From positions 1-35,269 of the IMG/VR virus record IMGVR_UViG_3300011252_000454: a stretch of 35,269 bases of DNA; one strand, written 5' to 3'. Positions 24,866 through 32,501 of the stretch are shown one piece after another (positions within the stretch are counted from its first letter, which is position 1; the number at the start of each line of letters is the position of its first letter). Below the pieces are notes generated by a model, which saw only the letters and a list, made by a program, of their open reading frames with translations, made no database searches and was not told where the DNA came from. A program made the translations under genes and the position numbers. Origin of the DNA: a virus.

Positions 24866-25243
24866 TCAAAAAGGAAGATCATCATCTGAATCGTCACCCA
24901 TTTGTGCCGCCGTTAACGTTTGGTCATGAATAGCGTTTTCTTCATTGGTTAATTTCTCAATCTTCCAATGTTTCAAAGATGTAAACATTTTAGAAGTACC
25001 TTCTTTATCAGTCCATTCTCTCGAACCAATGTTAAATTCAACTTCAACACGATCACCAACCTTATTAAACTTTAGAAAGTTGTCAGCGTGTTCTGCGTAT
25101 TCTGGTTTTTTATACATTTCAAACTGGTGAATGTTATTGTATTGTTCTTCGTTATTGATTCTATACGTAACAATCTTTGCTCCATTATCTAGTTGTCTAA
25201 TTTCATCTATTTGGGTGATGTAGCCCTTCATCTTGTAATTCAT
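24866..25243 (-). CDS. SSB-like OB-fold protein (DUF3127-like)
   Basis: The 125-residue protein starts MNYKMKGYITQIDEIRQLDN and has strands such as KVGDRVEVEFNIGSREWTD with FTSLKHWKIEKL, as in Bacteroidetes DUF3127 proteins. It ends in an acidic tail, GDDSDDDLPF, the classical tip by which bacterial SSB recruits partner proteins. It probably coats single-stranded DNA during replication and annealing. The neighbouring ERF and NinG-like genes support this. Start 25243 is preceded by TTAAAAATT. Confidence 0.75.
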   Translation of the reverse strand: MNYKMKGYITQIDEIRQLDNGAKIVTYRINNEEQYNNIHQFEMYKKPEYAEHADNFLKFNKVGDRVEVEFNIGSREWTDKEGTSKMFTSLKHWKIEKLTNEENAIHDQTLTAAQMGDDSDDDLPF

Positions 25244-25273
25244 AATTTTTAATTTATTGTAAATATAGTTAAT

Positions 25274-25711
25274 TTATTTTAATAATTTATATAAATTCTT
25301 TAAAGTTTCTGCATAACTGTTTTTAACACTGATCTTGTTGTAAGCTTCTTTTGAAATCTTATGACCTGACCACCTAACAAATTTATCATAATCAGGATAT
25401 GATTCAAGATAATTGCTTTTTAATTCAAGCCTTAATTTAATAAGTTCTGGATTCTCTTTGAATACTTTCATGCGTTTCTTAGAGCTTTCTTTGAATCTTC
25501 TTTGTATTTCATCCTGACATTTATTTGACTGTTTTAAACAGTCTGTTTTAAGGTCATTAATGATATTCCAAAACGGGTTCAATTCTTTCTTTGTATCAAA
25601 GTCTTGAATTTCTCTTAAAGTTCTGCAATGATCTTTAAATTCTAAATCATAAAAACGTTTTGCCGATTCAGGGTTTTTATCAATTAAATTTTCTGCTTTT
25701 GTATAGTTCAT
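25274..25711 (-). CDS. hypothetical basic helical protein, 145 aa
   Basis: The protein is Lys/Glu/Asn-rich and mostly helical (MNYTKAENLIDKNPESAKRF, then RRFKESSKKRMKVFKENPEL). It lies between ERF and the SSB-like gene, coupled to ERF by ATGA. It could be a partner of the annealing protein, but no nuclease motif (for example a PD-(D/E)XK set) is clear. The last 30 residues (SYAETLKNLYKLLK) form an amphipathic helix. Confidence 0.7.
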   Translation of the reverse strand: MNYTKAENLIDKNPESAKRFYDLEFKDHCRTLREIQDFDTKKELNPFWNIINDLKTDCLKQSNKCQDEIQRRFKESSKKRMKVFKENPELIKLRLELKSNYLESYPDYDKFVRWSGHKISKEAYNKISVKNSYAETLKNLYKLLK

Positions 25712-26220
25712 GATAATTGTTTTATGTATTCGTTTGCAACTTCTTCAGTGATAAAATAGTATTCTTTCATCTTTTCGTATGGCATTTTTTTATCAATACC
25801 GTTTGTGAAGTCTTTAGAATCTAATAATAAAGTCTTTCTTTTTACTGGTTTAACTTGTTCACCGTGTGCATCAGCATCTTTGTCTGTAATTAAACCAAGT
25901 AAGCAAGACAATGAATATCTTCTTAAATAAGTAATACCAGAACCAAGTGCTTGATATTCGTTTTGTCCTTTCAAACTCACTTTAGGAATATTAATATTAG
26001 ATTTGATATGTTCACCACTTTCTACATGAAACACCATTGTACTAAGTGAATAACCATCTAAGTATTGCGTGAATCCTAAGCCATGCTTTTTTAATAGTGG
26101 CTTAATAACATCAAACACTTGGTTTAAATCGGCATACGTATAATTATAGCCTTTAGTGTTTTGATGGATAACTGGAACTTCATTTTGAAATTTTGCTAAT
26201 GCTTTAAATAATTCTTTCAT
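25708..26220 (-). CDS. ERF-family single-strand annealing protein
   Basis: The 170-residue protein carries the ERF family hallmarks. These are an N-terminal helix (LFKALAKFQNEVPVIHQ), TYADLNQVFDVIKPLLKKHG, and the signature YQALGSGITYLRRYSLSCLL followed by DKDADAHG. ERF proteins anneal homologous single strands during phage recombination and repair. It is the second gene of the leftward block, downstream of a strong promoter. The C-terminal part after about 120 is variable, as is normal. Confidence 0.9.
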   Translation of the reverse strand: MKELFKALAKFQNEVPVIHQNTKGYNYTYADLNQVFDVIKPLLKKHGLGFTQYLDGYSLSTMVFHVESGEHIKSNINIPKVSLKGQNEYQALGSGITYLRRYSLSCLLGLITDKDADAHGEQVKPVKRKTLLLDSKDFTNGIDKKMPYEKMKEYYFITEEVANEYIKQLS

Positions 26221-26227
26221 TTTGTTT

Positions 26228-26461
26228 TTATTTATGTTCTGTGATTATTGTTATTGTTTTGTGGTCCATCATATCATCTTCATTAGAATCATAATCCCAA
26301 TCAAAAATCATATTAACATCATTATCTAATACTGAATATCTTTCCCTTTTGTCGTTTAAATTAGATGTTGCAAACCTAATTACATCAGTGGACCTAAACT
26401 TGTTAATTATCATTAATAAATCTTCTACGGTCATTTCTTTTTTACCTTTTAGTACTTTCAT
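26228..26461 (-). CDS. hypothetical protein, 77 aa, first gene of leftward block
   Basis: The product starts MKVLKGKKEMTVEDLLMIIN and ends in an acidic stretch with SNEDDMMDHKTITIITEHK. It has no motif I recognise. The ATG lies 16 bases downstream of the -7 element of the leftward promoter, so it is the first translated gene of the early operon. Its place next to the divergent promoters would suit a regulator or host-takeover factor, but there is no helix-turn-helix evidence. Confidence 0.7.
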   Translation of the reverse strand: MKVLKGKKEMTVEDLLMIINKFRSTDVIRFATSNLNDKRERYSVLDNDVNMIFDWDYDSNEDDMMDHKTITIITEHK

Positions 26462-26524: not shown

Positions 26525-26553
26525 TTGTAATTAATAAATGTTTTGTATATTAG
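26525..26553 (+). promoter_or_regulatory. rightward promoter of the GIY-YIG gene
   Basis: TTG (26525-26527), 18 bases, TATATTAG (26546-26553) fits the consensus with one mismatch in the -7 element. The ATG at 26570 follows 16 bases later. The two opposed promoters share the 26478-26553 region and could be controlled together. Confidence 0.68.
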
Positions 26554-26569
26554 CAGAAAATTAGAAATT

Positions 26570-27022
26570 ATGTACATGAACCATAAACCAGATGCGATTG
26601 GGGTTTTTAAATCTCTATTAAAAGATAGAACAAATGAAGAAGTTGAAGCACTTAGAAGAACTAGTAAATCAGATAAGATTAATTTTTTAGATGCTTTAAC
26701 TAGGTTTGAGATGCCTAATGTTGGAGTTTATTTTTTATTTGACGGGGTTGATTTAGTTTATATCGGTCAAACAATAAGAGGCATGGATAGACTGAACGAC
26801 CACCTTAATGATGAAAGGAAAATATTTGATAGTTATTCTTTTGTTAAATGTAGCCATCAACAAGAAGCTAAAGAATTAGAAAAAGAATTGATTATAAGGT
26901 ATAAACCACCATTAAATAAAGTTTATGCTAAAATAAATATAGATCAACAATCTGAATTTGTATCGAAAACAAAAAAACATTTAGATTCTCTTGAAGATGT
27001 TTATAATAAAGTTTTTAGATAA
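26570..27022 (+). CDS. GIY-YIG nuclease
   Basis: The 150-residue protein has a GIY-YIG core: GVY at 52-54, YIG at 64-66 with QT after it, Arg74 and His78 in RLNDH, then a Glu-rich helix (QEAKELEKELIIRYKPPLNK) carrying the expected Glu and Asn. An N-terminal helical region (1-50) may bind DNA. Such phage proteins are homing-type or repair nucleases. I chose ATG 26570 because the upstream TTG at 26543 lies within the promoter. It is the first gene of the rightward early block. Confidence 0.85.
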   Translation: MYMNHKPDAIGVFKSLLKDRTNEEVEALRRTSKSDKINFLDALTRFEMPNVGVYFLFDGVDLVYIGQTIRGMDRLNDHLNDERKIFDSYSFVKCSHQQEAKELEKELIIRYKPPLNKVYAKINIDQQSEFVSKTKKHLDSLEDVYNKVFR

Positions 27023-27061: not shown

Positions 27062-27155
27062 GTTCGCCTATCACATAAGAACACAAAGAAATTAATTTTA
27101 AACCGTTTTCGGTAGATTTGGAGTGATAGCCAATGAAACTGAAAGCGGTTTTTTT
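27062..27155 (+). ncRNA. structured leader or small RNA with terminator and pseudoknot-like pairings
   Basis: This gene-free stretch of about 95 bases lies between a strong promoter and the ATG at 27176. The 3' part is an intrinsic terminator: bases 27100-27113 pair with 27138-27151 (14 positions, two of them G-U) and seven T follow (27149-27155). CTATCAC (27068-27074) matches GTGATAG (27123-27129), which lies between the two terminator arms, so both cannot form as simple nested stems. ACCG-TTTT-CGGT (27102-27113) is a local hairpin inside the first arm, and GTTC/GAAC (27062-27082) places CTATCAC in a loop. It may be an attenuator of the following genes or a stand-alone RNA. Confidence 0.72.
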
Positions 27156-27175
27156 ATACTAAATATTTTATTATA

Positions 27176-27376
27176 ATGAAGATTACATTTAAATGTAAAC
27201 AAGACCCAAGACACGCAAACATTACGTTTCATAAAGAAGATGATCTTTTAGTTATCTCTTCAAATGATGGTGATACTTTTTCTGATGTCTTTTTGAATGA
27301 ACAAGATTTATTTCTTTTAATAGGTCAACTTTTAAGGATTCAATCAGAAATTAGAAAAGGGGGTGAAGATGTCTAA
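27176..27376 (+). CDS. hypothetical protein, 66 aa
   Basis: This small acidic protein (MKITFKCKQDPRHANITFHK, then ISSNDGDTFSDVFLNEQDLF) has a beta hairpin-like first half and a C-terminal helix (LIGQLLRIQSEIRKGG). It is the first reading frame after the structured RNA and overlaps the initiator-like gene by eight bases, so its expression would report whether the RNA terminates transcription. Family not recognised. Confidence 0.7.
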   Translation: MKITFKCKQDPRHANITFHKEDDLLVISSNDGDTFSDVFLNEQDLFLLIGQLLRIQSEIRKGGEDV

Positions 27377-28055
27377 TCATGGGTGGATAAGTATTCATAG
27401 GAAATTAATTGACAATCATCTATGGACAGAAAAAAGGGTTTTTAGTAAAGCTGAAGCATGGATTGATATTCTTTTAATGGTTAATCATAAACAAGCTAAA
27501 GTTGTTATTAAGAACACTCTAATAACAGTTGGGCGTGGTGAATCAATTCTATCACTTGGCAGTTGGTCAAAAAGATGGAATTGGAATAAATCAGCAACAA
27601 GGCGTTTTTTAAGTTTGTTACAGCAAGACGAAATGATTATACTAAAAAGTGAATCAATAACGACACGCTTAACTGTTTGTAACTATGATAGTTATCAAGA
27701 TTCAAGAAACGCAGATGAAACGCAGATGAAACGCAAGCGAAACGCAGATGAAACGCAAGTGACACCAAACAATAATGATAATAATGATAATAATGATAAT
27801 AATGATAATAAATTATCTTTTGAATTGTTCTGGAATTTGTATGACAAGAAGGTTGGAAGTAAAGAGAAGATTTTTAAAAAATGGTGTAAACTATCTGAAG
27901 ATGAAATTAAACTTATATTTGAATATGTACCAAAGTATAAATTATTAACTTCAGATAAACAATACAGAAAGAACCCTGAAACATTTATAAACAATCAAAG
28001 CTGGAAAGACGAATTAATTATTAAACCAACGGTTAAAAAAAGAATAGCACTATGA
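27369..28055 (+). CDS. replication initiator/helicase-loader-like protein
   Basis: The 228-residue protein begins with a winged-helix-like domain found in phage replisome organisers (SNHGWISIHRKLIDNHLWTE to SATRRFLSLLQQDEMIILKS). A low-complexity linker encoded by the iterons and AT repeats (about 113-148, rich in Asn and Asp) follows. The C-terminal domain starts LSFELFWNLYDKKVGSKEKI, a motif of DnaD-like or replication O-like proteins. I used ATG 27369 over a GTG six bases earlier. It overlaps the primase-helicase as ATGA. An origin inside such a gene is known from lambda O. Confidence 0.78.
   Translation: MSNHGWISIHRKLIDNHLWTEKRVFSKAEAWIDILLMVNHKQAKVVIKNTLITVGRGESILSLGSWSKRWNWNKSATRRFLSLLQQDEMIILKSESITTRLTVCNYDSYQDSRNADETQMKRKRNADETQVTPNNNDNNDNNDNNDNKLSFELFWNLYDKKVGSKEKIFKKWCKLSEDEIKLIFEYVPKYKLLTSDKQYRKNPETFINNQSWKDELIIKPTVKKRIAL
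27706..27760 (+). repeat. five 11-bp iterons, probable replication origin
   Basis: Five direct tandem units start GAAACGCA: GAAACGCAGAT twice, GAAACGCAAGC, GAAACGCAGAT and GAAACGCAAGT. The 11-base period is not a multiple of three, so the translated sequence changes frame between copies. The DNA pattern, not the protein, appears to be kept. They lie inside the initiator-like gene and probably bind its product. Confidence 0.82.
27771..27806 (+). repeat. AT-rich 9-bp repeat next to the iterons, possible unwinding element
   Basis: Four perfect copies of AATAATGAT are followed by an AT-rich AATAAATTATC end. They follow the iterons after ten bases, as expected for a duplex unwinding region beside initiator sites. 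The period is three codons (Asn-Asn-Asp), so this repeat could also be plain slippage. Confidence 0.65.
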
Positions 28056-29839
28056 ACAACTTTATTGAATGGAATAGTTTAGATTTTCATAAAGATTCAG
28101 GTCGAGAGAAATTAAGATGCCCAGAATGTAACGAAAGAAGATCAGACAAAAAAGATAAGTCTTTGGTTGTTTACCATAATGATGGGGTTGCTAAATGTTT
28201 CTACTGTGAAGCGTTAAGTTTTAGAGAATCAGAAACAGATTATTCAGAAAAGAGTTACACACTACCAGAACAAACTTGGTCAAATTATACAAACCTTTCT
28301 GAAAACTTGGTTAAATTTATCGAGCAAACCAGAAAGATCAGCCAAAGTAGTTTAATTGATTTGGGGGTTACTGAAGAAAAGTATTACCAACCCAAACACA
28401 AGAAAGAGGTTAACAATATTGTCTTTAATTATTTTGAAGGCGAAAAGCTGGTTAATAAGAAATATCGGTCAGGTGATAAATCTTTCACTCAAACAACGGG
28501 TGGCAAACCAATTTTTTATAATATCAATTCGGTTATTGGTGCTAATGAAGTTTATATTGTTGAAGGTGAATTTGATGTAATTGCTTTACATTCACACGGA
28601 ATAAAAAACGCAATAAGCGTTCCAAACGGTGCAAATGATAATGACGAATATTGGAAAAACTCTGAACCATACTTGAAAGACATTCAAAAGTTTATCATTG
28701 CAGTTGACAATGACACAAAAGGAAATGAATTAAAAGATAAGATTGCACAAAGGTTAGGCCGTTACAGATGTGAGTTCATTGAATGGACTTCAAAAGATGC
28801 TAACGGTAGTTTGATTTCAAATGATATTGCCAAAGATTTAAAGAATAGAAAACGGTTTCCAGTTTCAGGAACATGGACAATTGAAGATTTAAAAGAAGGA
28901 ATTTATGATTTATACAATAACGGCTTACCAAAAACAATTGCACCAAAGAATGCTTGTTTTGGTAATTTGAAAGATGTGTTTTCTGTCATGGATGGACAGT
29001 TAACCGTTACAACTGGTATTCCTTCACATGGAAAGTCTAACTTTGTTGAATGGTGGATGCTTAATATCGTTAAAGACTATGATAAGAAGTGTTCAATGTT
29101 CACACCAGAACATTCACCAATGGAGCTACACCAAACAACATTGATGCAAAAGGCAATTGGCAGAAACTTTTGGAAAGACATGGAAGGAAGACCGAGAATA
29201 ACACCAGTAGATATTGAGCGATATATCAAATGGGCAAATGAAAAGATTTATATTACACTTCCTGAAAACGGAGAAGAGGCCACTTGGGATTGGTTATTTG
29301 ATAAATTCAAAGAGCAAATGTATTCTTTCGGGGTTAATATCTTCATTGTGGATGCGTTCAATAAAGTTAGACTTCCAAAAGGCAATAAGCTAGAAGAAAT
29401 TAATTCAGTGCTGACCAGGTTGACATCATTTTGTCAAATAAATAATGTGTCAATTTTACTTGTGGCACATCCAACAAAGATGAAGAAAGATGATAACGGG
29501 ATTTATGAAGTACCAACTTTGTATGATGTTTCTGGTTCTTCTGATTTTAGAAATCAAGCTCATAATGGATTTGCAATTCACAGATATTTTGATACAGAGA
29601 ATCAAGAAGGGTATTCTGAATTTATAAATTTAAAAACAAAGTTCAGTTTTCAGGGTGATATTGGTAAGCGTGTTGAATTTACTTATGACAAACCAACAGG
29701 CAGAATGTACGCCAAAGGAACACCAGCACCCACTTTTGATTTAACAATAACTGAAGAACCAGAACAAAAGATAATACCGAACATGGATTTTGATAAATAT
29801 TCTGACTTTGACAATCCACCGCCAACACTAGAATTTTGA
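28052..29839 (+). CDS. primase-helicase (T7 gp4/Twinkle-like)
   Basis: The 595-residue protein joins three parts. An N-terminal zinc ribbon has Cys23/Cys26 and Cys49/Cys52. A TOPRIM primase core has Val170-Glu-Gly-Glu-Phe-Asp175 and Asp219-Asn-Asp221. A RecA-like DnaB-type helicase has Walker A GIPSHGKS at 322-329 and Walker B Asp434 (IFIVDAFNK), with a following AHPTKMKK region. It would unwind DNA and make primers at the replication fork. No phage DNA polymerase gene was seen, so it probably works with host polymerase. It overlaps the initiator-like gene (ATGA), which likely recruits it. Confidence 0.93.
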   Translation: MNNFIEWNSLDFHKDSGREKLRCPECNERRSDKKDKSLVVYHNDGVAKCFYCEALSFRESETDYSEKSYTLPEQTWSNYTNLSENLVKFIEQTRKISQSSLIDLGVTEEKYYQPKHKKEVNNIVFNYFEGEKLVNKKYRSGDKSFTQTTGGKPIFYNINSVIGANEVYIVEGEFDVIALHSHGIKNAISVPNGANDNDEYWKNSEPYLKDIQKFIIAVDNDTKGNELKDKIAQRLGRYRCEFIEWTSKDANGSLISNDIAKDLKNRKRFPVSGTWTIEDLKEGIYDLYNNGLPKTIAPKNACFGNLKDVFSVMDGQLTVTTGIPSHGKSNFVEWWMLNIVKDYDKKCSMFTPEHSPMELHQTTLMQKAIGRNFWKDMEGRPRITPVDIERYIKWANEKIYITLPENGEEATWDWLFDKFKEQMYSFGVNIFIVDAFNKVRLPKGNKLEEINSVLTRLTSFCQINNVSILLVAHPTKMKKDDNGIYEVPTLYDVSGSSDFRNQAHNGFAIHRYFDTENQEGYSEFINLKTKFSFQGDIGKRVEFTYDKPTGRMYAKGTPAPTFDLTITEEPEQKIIPNMDFDKYSDFDNPPPTLEF

Positions 29840-30124: not shown

Positions 30125-30571
30125 ATGAACTTCATACCACCAGAACAATTAAAACTTCACAGTGCTAAAACAAACCTACTTTGTGAATTGGAGCGTGAAG
30201 ATTGGAACCCAGCAAACATTCGACTAATAGTTAGAGGTTTGAAACGCAACCCAAAGATAGAAGTAAAAGACTTTTCAGCCCATTACCAAAGAAAGATAAA
30301 GAAAATCATTCCTTTAGTTTGTAGAATAGGTAATATATCAAAGGCTAGTTTGTTCAGTAAGTCAAGAAAGGGAAAGGTTGTTTATGTTAGGCAGTTATTT
30401 ATGTATATCTTAGTAACTGATTTTAACCAGACTTTAGAACGTTCTGGCGGTTTATTTGGTTTAGATCACACAACAGCTTTACATTCTAGAAACAAAATAC
30501 AAGACTTTGTTGATATTAAAGACAAACAAACCATTGAAGACTTAAAACTAATTAGAGAGTTTTTAAATTGA
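30125..30571 (+). CDS. DnaA domain IV-like DNA-binding protein
   Basis: In the C-terminal half, VRQLFMYILVTDFNQTLERS, then GGLFGLDHTTALHSRNKI, match the helix-turn-helix and DHTT signature of DnaA domain IV (Asp114-His-Thr-Thr117). This domain recognises origin boxes. The AAA+ ATPase domain of DnaA is absent: the protein is only 148 residues, with a basic N-terminal half of unknown fold. It may bind the phage origin or compete with host DnaA. No canonical TTATCCACA box was seen near the iterons. Confidence 0.78.
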   Translation: MNFIPPEQLKLHSAKTNLLCELEREDWNPANIRLIVRGLKRNPKIEVKDFSAHYQRKIKKIIPLVCRIGNISKASLFSKSRKGKVVYVRQLFMYILVTDFNQTLERSGGLFGLDHTTALHSRNKIQDFVDIKDKQTIEDLKLIREFLN

Positions 30572-31594: not shown

Positions 31595-31906
31595 ATGATA
31601 AAGAATAAACAGTTTGAAGAGTGGTATTTAAAACTCCTAAACATACATAAAGCTCCTATTGATATAAAAACGGCAGAGATTGACAGATTCAAAGAGAATA
31701 TGTTTTGCGAACAATGGGGTGTTTACTTAGAGTTTTTTGATAGTGTTGGGGTTCACTTAGATGCTTTTATCGGTAAATCAAGAGAAAAGTATCATTATGA
31801 GATTTTCGGAGATGGTATTTATAAATGTAAAAAGACTTTTAATACAAGACAAGAAGCCCAACAAGAAGCAATTAAAAAAGCATTTGAAATACTAGAGAAT
31901 GATTAG
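31595..31906 (+). CDS. hypothetical protein, 103 aa
   Basis: A helical and beta mixed protein with MIKNKQFEEWYLKLLNIHKA, EQWGVYLEFFDSVGVHLDAF and a C-terminal RQEAQQEAIKKAFEILEND. That end is like helical tails of small phage proteins that accompany DNA-processing genes. No motif or membrane segment is visible. It overlaps the first glycosyltransferase by eight bases and so begins the glycan cassette's transcription unit. Confidence 0.7.
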   Translation: MIKNKQFEEWYLKLLNIHKAPIDIKTAEIDRFKENMFCEQWGVYLEFFDSVGVHLDAFIGKSREKYHYEIFGDGIYKCKKTFNTRQEAQQEAIKKAFEILEND

Positions 31907-32501
31907 TGTAATAATACCATATAACAAAGATAGAGGTTATCTAATCCAGGCAATCAATTCTGTACAAACACAAATTTACAGAGATGTTGAAATCATTTTA
32001 AGTTATTCAGATAAATCAGTTGGTTATAATATCAATAGAGGTATTGAGAAAGCAAGAGGTGAATATGTTTGTTTTCTATGTGATGATGACACACTACCAC
32101 CAAACAGTTTACAAGATAGACTTGAAGCAATTAAAGACTTTGATTTTATTCATGGAAGATCAATGCAATTCAATGAGAACGGAGATATAAAAGAATGGCC
32201 ATTGACAGACAGAAGAACTAACTTAAAGAAGATGTTGAATCAGAATGGTATAATGGGCGGCACTGTTCTTTATAGAAAAAGCTTATTTGATTCTTTTAAA
32301 TGGGATGAAGAACTTTGGACTGGTGAAGAATATGATGTTAACCTTTATTTATTAAAGAACGGTTTTAAACTTGGTTTTTGTAATTCATTTGTTTACAATT
32401 ACAGAAGACATTCAGAGCAGAAATCACTAGGTAATAAAGATTTTAAATATCAGAACGCAAGAAGAATAGAAGTTGAACGAATAAGATCAAGATATGCTTA
32501 A
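31899..32501 (+). CDS. family 2-type glycosyltransferase
   Basis: The 200-residue protein has the GT-A fold markers: an N-terminal MISVIIPYNKDRGYLIQAIN strand-helix, a GYNINRGIEKARGEYV segment, and Asp62-Asp-Asp64 (CDDDTLPP) for binding metal and sugar nucleotide. A GEEYDVNLYLLKNGFKLGF acceptor-side region follows. It probably adds a sugar to a phage or host glycan. It overlaps the acyltransferase gene by eight bases in a tight cassette. Donor and acceptor cannot be told from sequence. Confidence 0.88.
   Translation: MISVIIPYNKDRGYLIQAINSVQTQIYRDVEIILSYSDKSVGYNINRGIEKARGEYVCFLCDDDTLPPNSLQDRLEAIKDFDFIHGRSMQFNENGDIKEWPLTDRRTNLKKMLNQNGIMGGTVLYRKSLFDSFKWDEELWTGEEYDVNLYLLKNGFKLGFCNSFVYNYRRHSEQKSLGNKDFKYQNARRIEVERIRSRYA

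Follow-up and report, generated by a model that had tools for sequence, protein, structure and literature searches.

Why would a phage carry a tandem array of 11-bp units in the middle of a coding sequence, where each copy is read in another codon phase? The question is posed by positions 27706-27811 of a 35,269-nucleotide stretch of viral DNA (IMG/VR record IMGVR_UViG_3300011252_000454, positions 1 to 35,269; hereafter the window), in which short direct repeats are followed by an AT-rich repeat inside a replication initiator gene. Judging from the sequence, we consider it very probable that the locus is a phage replication origin embedded in its own initiator gene, on the plan of lambda ori and SPP1 oriL. 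This reading would place the probable origin of an uncultivated, probably Bacteroidetes-infecting phage within about 110 bp.

The initiator and its genomic neighborhood

The gene containing the repeats (27369-28055, plus strand, stop included) encodes a 228-aa protein that was assigned through PHROGs to phage replication initiators of the DnaD-like helicase loader or replisome organizer type. It matched phrog_2514 ('DnaD-like helicase loader', 8.8e-30, residues 3-148) and phrog_270 ('replication initiation protein', 8.7e-11), bearing out the original prediction of an initiator-like gene, and also phrog_186 (3.1e-15); its N-terminal domain thus matched the DnaD-like phage initiators of phrog_2514 and phrog_186 by sequence. 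The protein was assigned to no Pfam family, and Pfam gave no match in it to the C-terminal DnaD domain PF07261 (DnaB_2), which was found in PVL orf46, A403 gp40 and relative L025. In an AlphaFold2 model (mean pLDDT 79) an N-terminal domain (about residues 4-111, with pLDDT mostly >80 across residues 11-110) and a C-terminal domain (residues 142-208) were confident, and residues 113-144, encoded by the 11-bp array and most of the AT tract, fell below 50. The arrays therefore encode a predicted disordered linker (residues 113-144) that joins the winged-helix and C-terminal domains.

The N-terminal winged-helix domain (residues 1-111, 27369-27701, plus strand) is the putative iteron binder. Its model resembled winged-helix DNA-binding domains (CAP, Z 8.3, 77 residues, 2.5 A). 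Fold and sequence searches of the PDB returned generic winged-helix regulators only and no solved initiator-iteron complex; these generic matches suggest a DNA-binding fold and point to no particular family. Lambda O and DnaD were missing from the PDB matches, which does not exclude kinship with them. Records with cellular relatives of the N-terminal domain included Lutibacter, Flavobacteriales and Sphingobacterium, in keeping with a probable Bacteroidetes host for this phage. The C-terminal domain and tail (27792-28052, plus strand, model domain residues 142-208) may contact the replication machinery; the same type of C-terminal domain was found in relatives L033, L034 and L037-L039, joined to different N-terminal domains. 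The next gene (28052-29839, plus strand), which overlaps the initiator stop by 4 bp, encodes a primase-helicase (Toprim plus DnaB_C-like) that is the likely partner of the initiator, with matches to Toprim_4 (1e-11), to DnaB_C (2.4e-4, below the Pfam cut-off) and to phrog_239 ('DNA primase/helicase', 2.1e-88).

Several other features lie around these genes. A 66-aa open reading frame (27176-27376, plus strand), directly 5' of the initiator and overlapping its start, had no match in Pfam or PHROGs. A strong hairpin of 14 bp with a T run behind it (27100-27156, plus strand; -25 kcal/mol, z -3.8) sits just 5' of the replication genes, between gene 26543-27022 and the gene at 27176, and from its sequence may be a terminator or attenuator-like leader. 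Pfam and PHROGs identified further early-region proteins: an ERF single-strand annealing protein (25708-26220, minus strand), a GIY-YIG endonuclease-like protein (26543-27022, plus strand) and a glycosyltransferase-like protein (31899-32501, plus strand). About 2.4 kb 3' of the iterons, a 148-aa protein (30125-30571, plus strand) carries a DnaA C-terminal helix-turn-helix (Bac_DnaA_C, 2.1e-14), with no AAA+ domain found in it; related proteins lie close to the initiators of relatives L005, L009 and L041, and the protein might recognize DnaA boxes of the host or have a modulating role in replication. Searches for RNA families and tRNAs found none. The repeats had also been placed about 1.2 kb from divergent promoters: the gap between divergent genes at 26461 (minus strand) and 26543 (plus strand) does lie that far away, but promoters were not established there, and the Bacteroidetes promoter pattern occurred at chance level in the window.

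Two tandem arrays in the linker

Direct reading, a repeat search and TRF agreed on five abutting 11-bp units at 27706-27760 (plus strand), each an 8-bp core GAAACGCA with a 3-bp spacer. Units 1 (27706-27716), 2 (27717-27727) and 4 (27739-27749) read GAAACGCAGAT (GAAACGCA-GAT), unit 5 (27750-27760) reads GAAACGCAAGT (GAAACGCA-AGT), and unit 3 (27728-27738), where GAT at the unit end would give an in-frame TGA, reads GAAACGCAAGC (GAAACGCA-AGC). A degenerate sixth unit, GACACCAAACA, follows in register at 27761-27771 (plus strand), and array ends resembling it (GACACCAA or GATACCAA) were present in many relatives. The AT array (27771-27811, plus strand), a candidate DNA unwinding element, comprises 4.6 copies of AATAATGAT with 100% matches and encodes NNDNNDNNDNND, so that of the repeats originally predicted the five 11-bp units stood, and the four AT-rich units became slightly more than four. 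The coding sequence crosses the 11-bp units in all three phases, confirming that the period shifts the reading frame with each copy. Consequently the linker translation, SRNADETQMKRKRNADETQVTPNNNDNNDNNDNNDNK, contains an 11-residue protein repeat (RNADETQMKRK followed by RNADETQ) that corresponds to three 11-bp units, one per phase.

The TRF scores of the iteron and AT arrays, 83 and 82, were the two highest in the window, with the next at 56, and both were the sole repeats of period 7-30 to reach a self-match score of 20 in 35 kb. The 11-bp self-match score was 26.5, and none of 2,696 control stretches of equal length scored at least 15. The repeat search (period 7-30) found no second iteron array elsewhere in the window.

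Selection on the 11-bp array

A low-complexity linker can gather repeats by slippage, and the array might be such a linker, drifting or selected for its protein and with no function as DNA. The predicted disorder of the region (AlphaFold2) would suit this explanation, as would the Asn/Asp- or Lys/Glu-rich linkers common among relatives and the in-frame 9-bp repeat of the AT tract; the 11-bp unit, in contrast, gives each copy another codon phase. Comparison with relatives bears on this directly. Relatives gathered with the whole protein were biased to NNNDNND linkers, because this peptide formed part of the search pattern, and a second set was therefore gathered with the N-terminal domain alone to remove that bias. 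For 80 distinct linkers we took the 81 nt past the end of the N-terminal domain and determined the best self-match lag among 6-25. This lag was 11 bp in 55 of 80 linkers and 22 bp in a further 17, whereas 11 and 22 together made up 7.6% of control stretches from the same loci. When the peptide was held fixed and codons were resampled, 71 of 80 linkers were more 11-bp periodic than their synonymous versions at the 5% level. With relatives clustered at 70% N-domain identity, 38 of 58 clusters reached a lag-11 or lag-22 score of at least 15; with clustering at 50%, one of these lags was still preferred in 16 of 19 clusters, and in the set gathered by N-domain alone the figure was 28 of 33.

Exact cores in relatives of the GAAACGCA type were spread over the three codon phases (27/24/17). 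In two of these phases T preceded the next GA in 47 of 78 units; in the third, where a T there makes an in-frame TGA, none of 22 units had it. Between pairs of relatives, which are not independent of one another, shared residues had the identical codon in 82% of cases in the array versus 53% in the N-terminal domain; within the array, Ala codons were the same in 100% of cases and Asn codons in 96%, and codons for Asp and Gln, which cover the spacer, were not frozen. Across all relatives, AAC accounted for 79% of the Asn codons in the array, whereas AAT prevailed in the N-terminal domain (67%) and in the AT tract (76%). Selection on the iterons at the level of DNA rather than protein, as had been predicted from the 11-base period, is thus supported by codon phase, by codon use and by the comparison with relatives. 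Against codons that are frozen over the core and free over the spacer, and the excess of periodicity over synonymous versions in 71 of 80 linkers, a linker shaped by slippage or protein selection alone seems a very improbable source of the array. Because 11 is not a multiple of three, changes in array length keep the gene intact only in steps of three units.

The AT tract and other candidate origin signals

When nearest-neighbor stability was computed over 30, 42 or 60 bp, only one other distinct site in the 35 kb was less stable than the AT tract, which fell within the lowest 0.05-0.08% of positions. The sequence that follows the array was likewise computed to be the least stable part of the gene in 54 of 80 relatives; it was often AATAATGAT-like and in others could instead consist of A-rich GAA/AAG repeats. 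As the 9-bp period of the AT tract is in frame, a protein-level explanation may hold for this tract. The lowest stability over 30-60 bp was at 25243-25273, in the gap between two minus-strand genes, probably a promoter region.

A DnaA-box origin was considered and rejected: near-matches to TTATNCACA numbered 47 in the window versus 66 expected, without a cluster at the AT tract, and exact sites were found at two positions only, 24460 and 34014. GC skew was also discarded as origin evidence, tracking gene orientation only.

Selection for protein binding would equally preserve an autoregulatory operator, a roadblock or another control site bound by the initiator. Initiators that bind plasmid iterons commonly regulate their own genes, which lends this alternative some general plausibility, and DNA-level selection is silent on what the binding does. 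The array, however, lies about 340 bp into the coding sequence rather than at a promoter, an unusually meltable tract follows it directly, and in SPP1 and lambda the same order and position of elements constitute an origin. We regard a control site in place of an origin as very unlikely.

Variation of the array among relatives

The spacing of the repeats was conserved, with 11 bp preferred in 55 and 22 bp in 17 of 80 linkers, and their letters varied, which answers the comparison across related phages that the original prediction had proposed. Iteron sequences included GAAACGCAnnT, GTACATCAAAC (the type of relative L009), the ACAACAAGC type (relative L095) and others. Array similarity climbed with N-domain identity, also where C-terminal domains were unrelated: the mean similarity score was 8.2 below 40% N-domain identity versus 34 above 70%. 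Such tracking fits the N-terminal domain as the predicted iteron binder, though physical linkage alone could be its source. Among named phages, PVL orf46 and Lc-Nu ORF34 carried 11-bp arrays, periods of 22-23 bp were found in A403, SL25 and a Vibrio phage, and A118 and iA2 had 8- and 12-bp repeats; the initiator genes of 80alpha and TP901-1 had no repeat at 11 bp. A 23-bp linker period, about two helical turns, was observed in L078 (3338-3382), L112 (phage SL25) and L113 (Vibrio phage 1.242.O).

Relatives keeping the protein and lacking the repeat, named at the outset as evidence against an origin, do exist as a small minority and are not the rule: L077, L101 and L102 retained the N-terminal domain without an array, and in the DNA fetched for them none had moved elsewhere. 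This loss in a few relatives could mean that the array is secondary or vestigial and that another site serves as the main origin, as might the two origins of SPP1, oriL and oriR (PMC6316719), and a record that may be incomplete at its ends. The window, on the other hand, holds no further iteron array and the frozen codons point to selection still at work in the family, so that we give this alternative the least weight of all, close to none.

A model for initiation

Three elements of an embedded origin were found at this locus, namely tandem repeats in the initiator coding sequence, conservation at the DNA level and a meltable AT-rich neighbor, and we return to an origin within the gene as the preferred reading. 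The winged-helix domain of the initiator would bind each 8-bp core GAAACGCA; as the 11-bp unit is not palindromic, it would probably do so as a monomer. With one unit in each helical turn, five or six initiators would sit along a single side of the helix over about 55-66 bp, and this complex on the iterons would open the neighboring AATAATGAT tract. The C-terminal domain may then help to bring in the phage primase-helicase encoded by the next gene. This last step is the weakest of the model and weakly supported, because the type of C-terminal domain does not track the type of partner: there was no clean correlation between the two, and unrelated C-terminal domains shared one primase-helicase type.

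A broader reading, which we hold tentatively and at slightly under even chances, is that the helical-turn period of 11 bp or about 22-23 bp, and not the sequence, is the conserved origin signal in DnaD-like phage initiators, with monomers assembled into a rod along one side of the duplex, and with the recognition helix and the iteron sequence changing together. It would extend to phages of Bacteroidetes, Firmicutes and other hosts and, if true, would allow origins to be read straight from the DNA encoding these linkers. The 11-bp period in the initiator linker gives a simple origin-predicting rule for dozens of phages with DnaD-like initiators. Differing arrays, each paired with its own N-terminal domain, offer material on how the specificity of winged-helix initiators changes, and the locus provides a case of one DNA segment that would serve both origin and coding demands.

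Comparison with known origins

In lambdoid phages, ori lies in the middle of gene O and comprises iterons and an AT-rich region (PMC7466680), and the iterons are bound by O dimers (PMC7466680). The window resembles lambda in having iterons and then an AT-rich tract mid-gene, between the regions encoding the N- and C-terminal parts of the initiator, and differs in its 11-bp units, where lambda has annotated 18-bp iterons spaced 20-24 bp. The lambda O plan proposed in the original prediction therefore holds for the layout but not for the protein family: the window protein gave no hit to PF04492 (Phage_rep_O) even with E-values of up to 1 allowed, whereas lambda O itself was detected at 5.7e-36.

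As precedents, gene 38 with oriL in Bacillus phage SPP1 and ORF20 of Staphylococcus phage 80alpha are at least as close as lambda. In SPP1 the replisome organizer gp38 binds direct repeats in oriL, which lies within gene 38 and has an AT-rich unwinding element next to them (PMC6316719); direct repeats with an AT-rich element within the initiator gene are likewise found in the window. The likeness was drawn from the published description of SPP1, not from sequence, and SPP1 differs in having a second origin, oriR (PMC6316719), in using gp39 as a separate helicase loader and in its DnaB-type helicase, gp40. The origin of 80alpha is thought to lie within ORF20, because that gene could not be complemented in trans (PMC5499656). 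A putative rep_origin is annotated within that initiator gene, as the present reading would have it for the window; ORF20 differs in its best PHROG, phrog_428, and its best self-match lags, 30 and 15 bp. Orf46 of Staphylococcus phage PVL and ORF34 of Lactobacillus phage Lc-Nu share with the window a related N-terminal domain (phrog_2514/186) followed by an 11-bp iteron array and, in PVL orf46, a AATAATGAT-like tract as well. Their iterons are of the ACATCAAAACA type in PVL and the GTGTCCATCAA type in Lc-Nu, unlike those of the window, and PVL orf46 has the DnaD C-terminal domain PF07261 that the window protein lacks; for neither phage did we find experimental origin mapping in the literature.

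Iteron plasmid origins have a comparable layout, with tandem initiator-binding repeats beside an AT-rich unwinding region, but plasmid iterons are typically longer, recur about every 22 bp and as a rule sit outside the rep coding sequence. We found no description of an 11-bp iteron rule in phage initiator genes in a literature search that covered few subscription journals. The embedded-origin plan is thus already known, and what is provisionally new is an 11-bp period kept across distant relatives while the sequence that it spaces changes.
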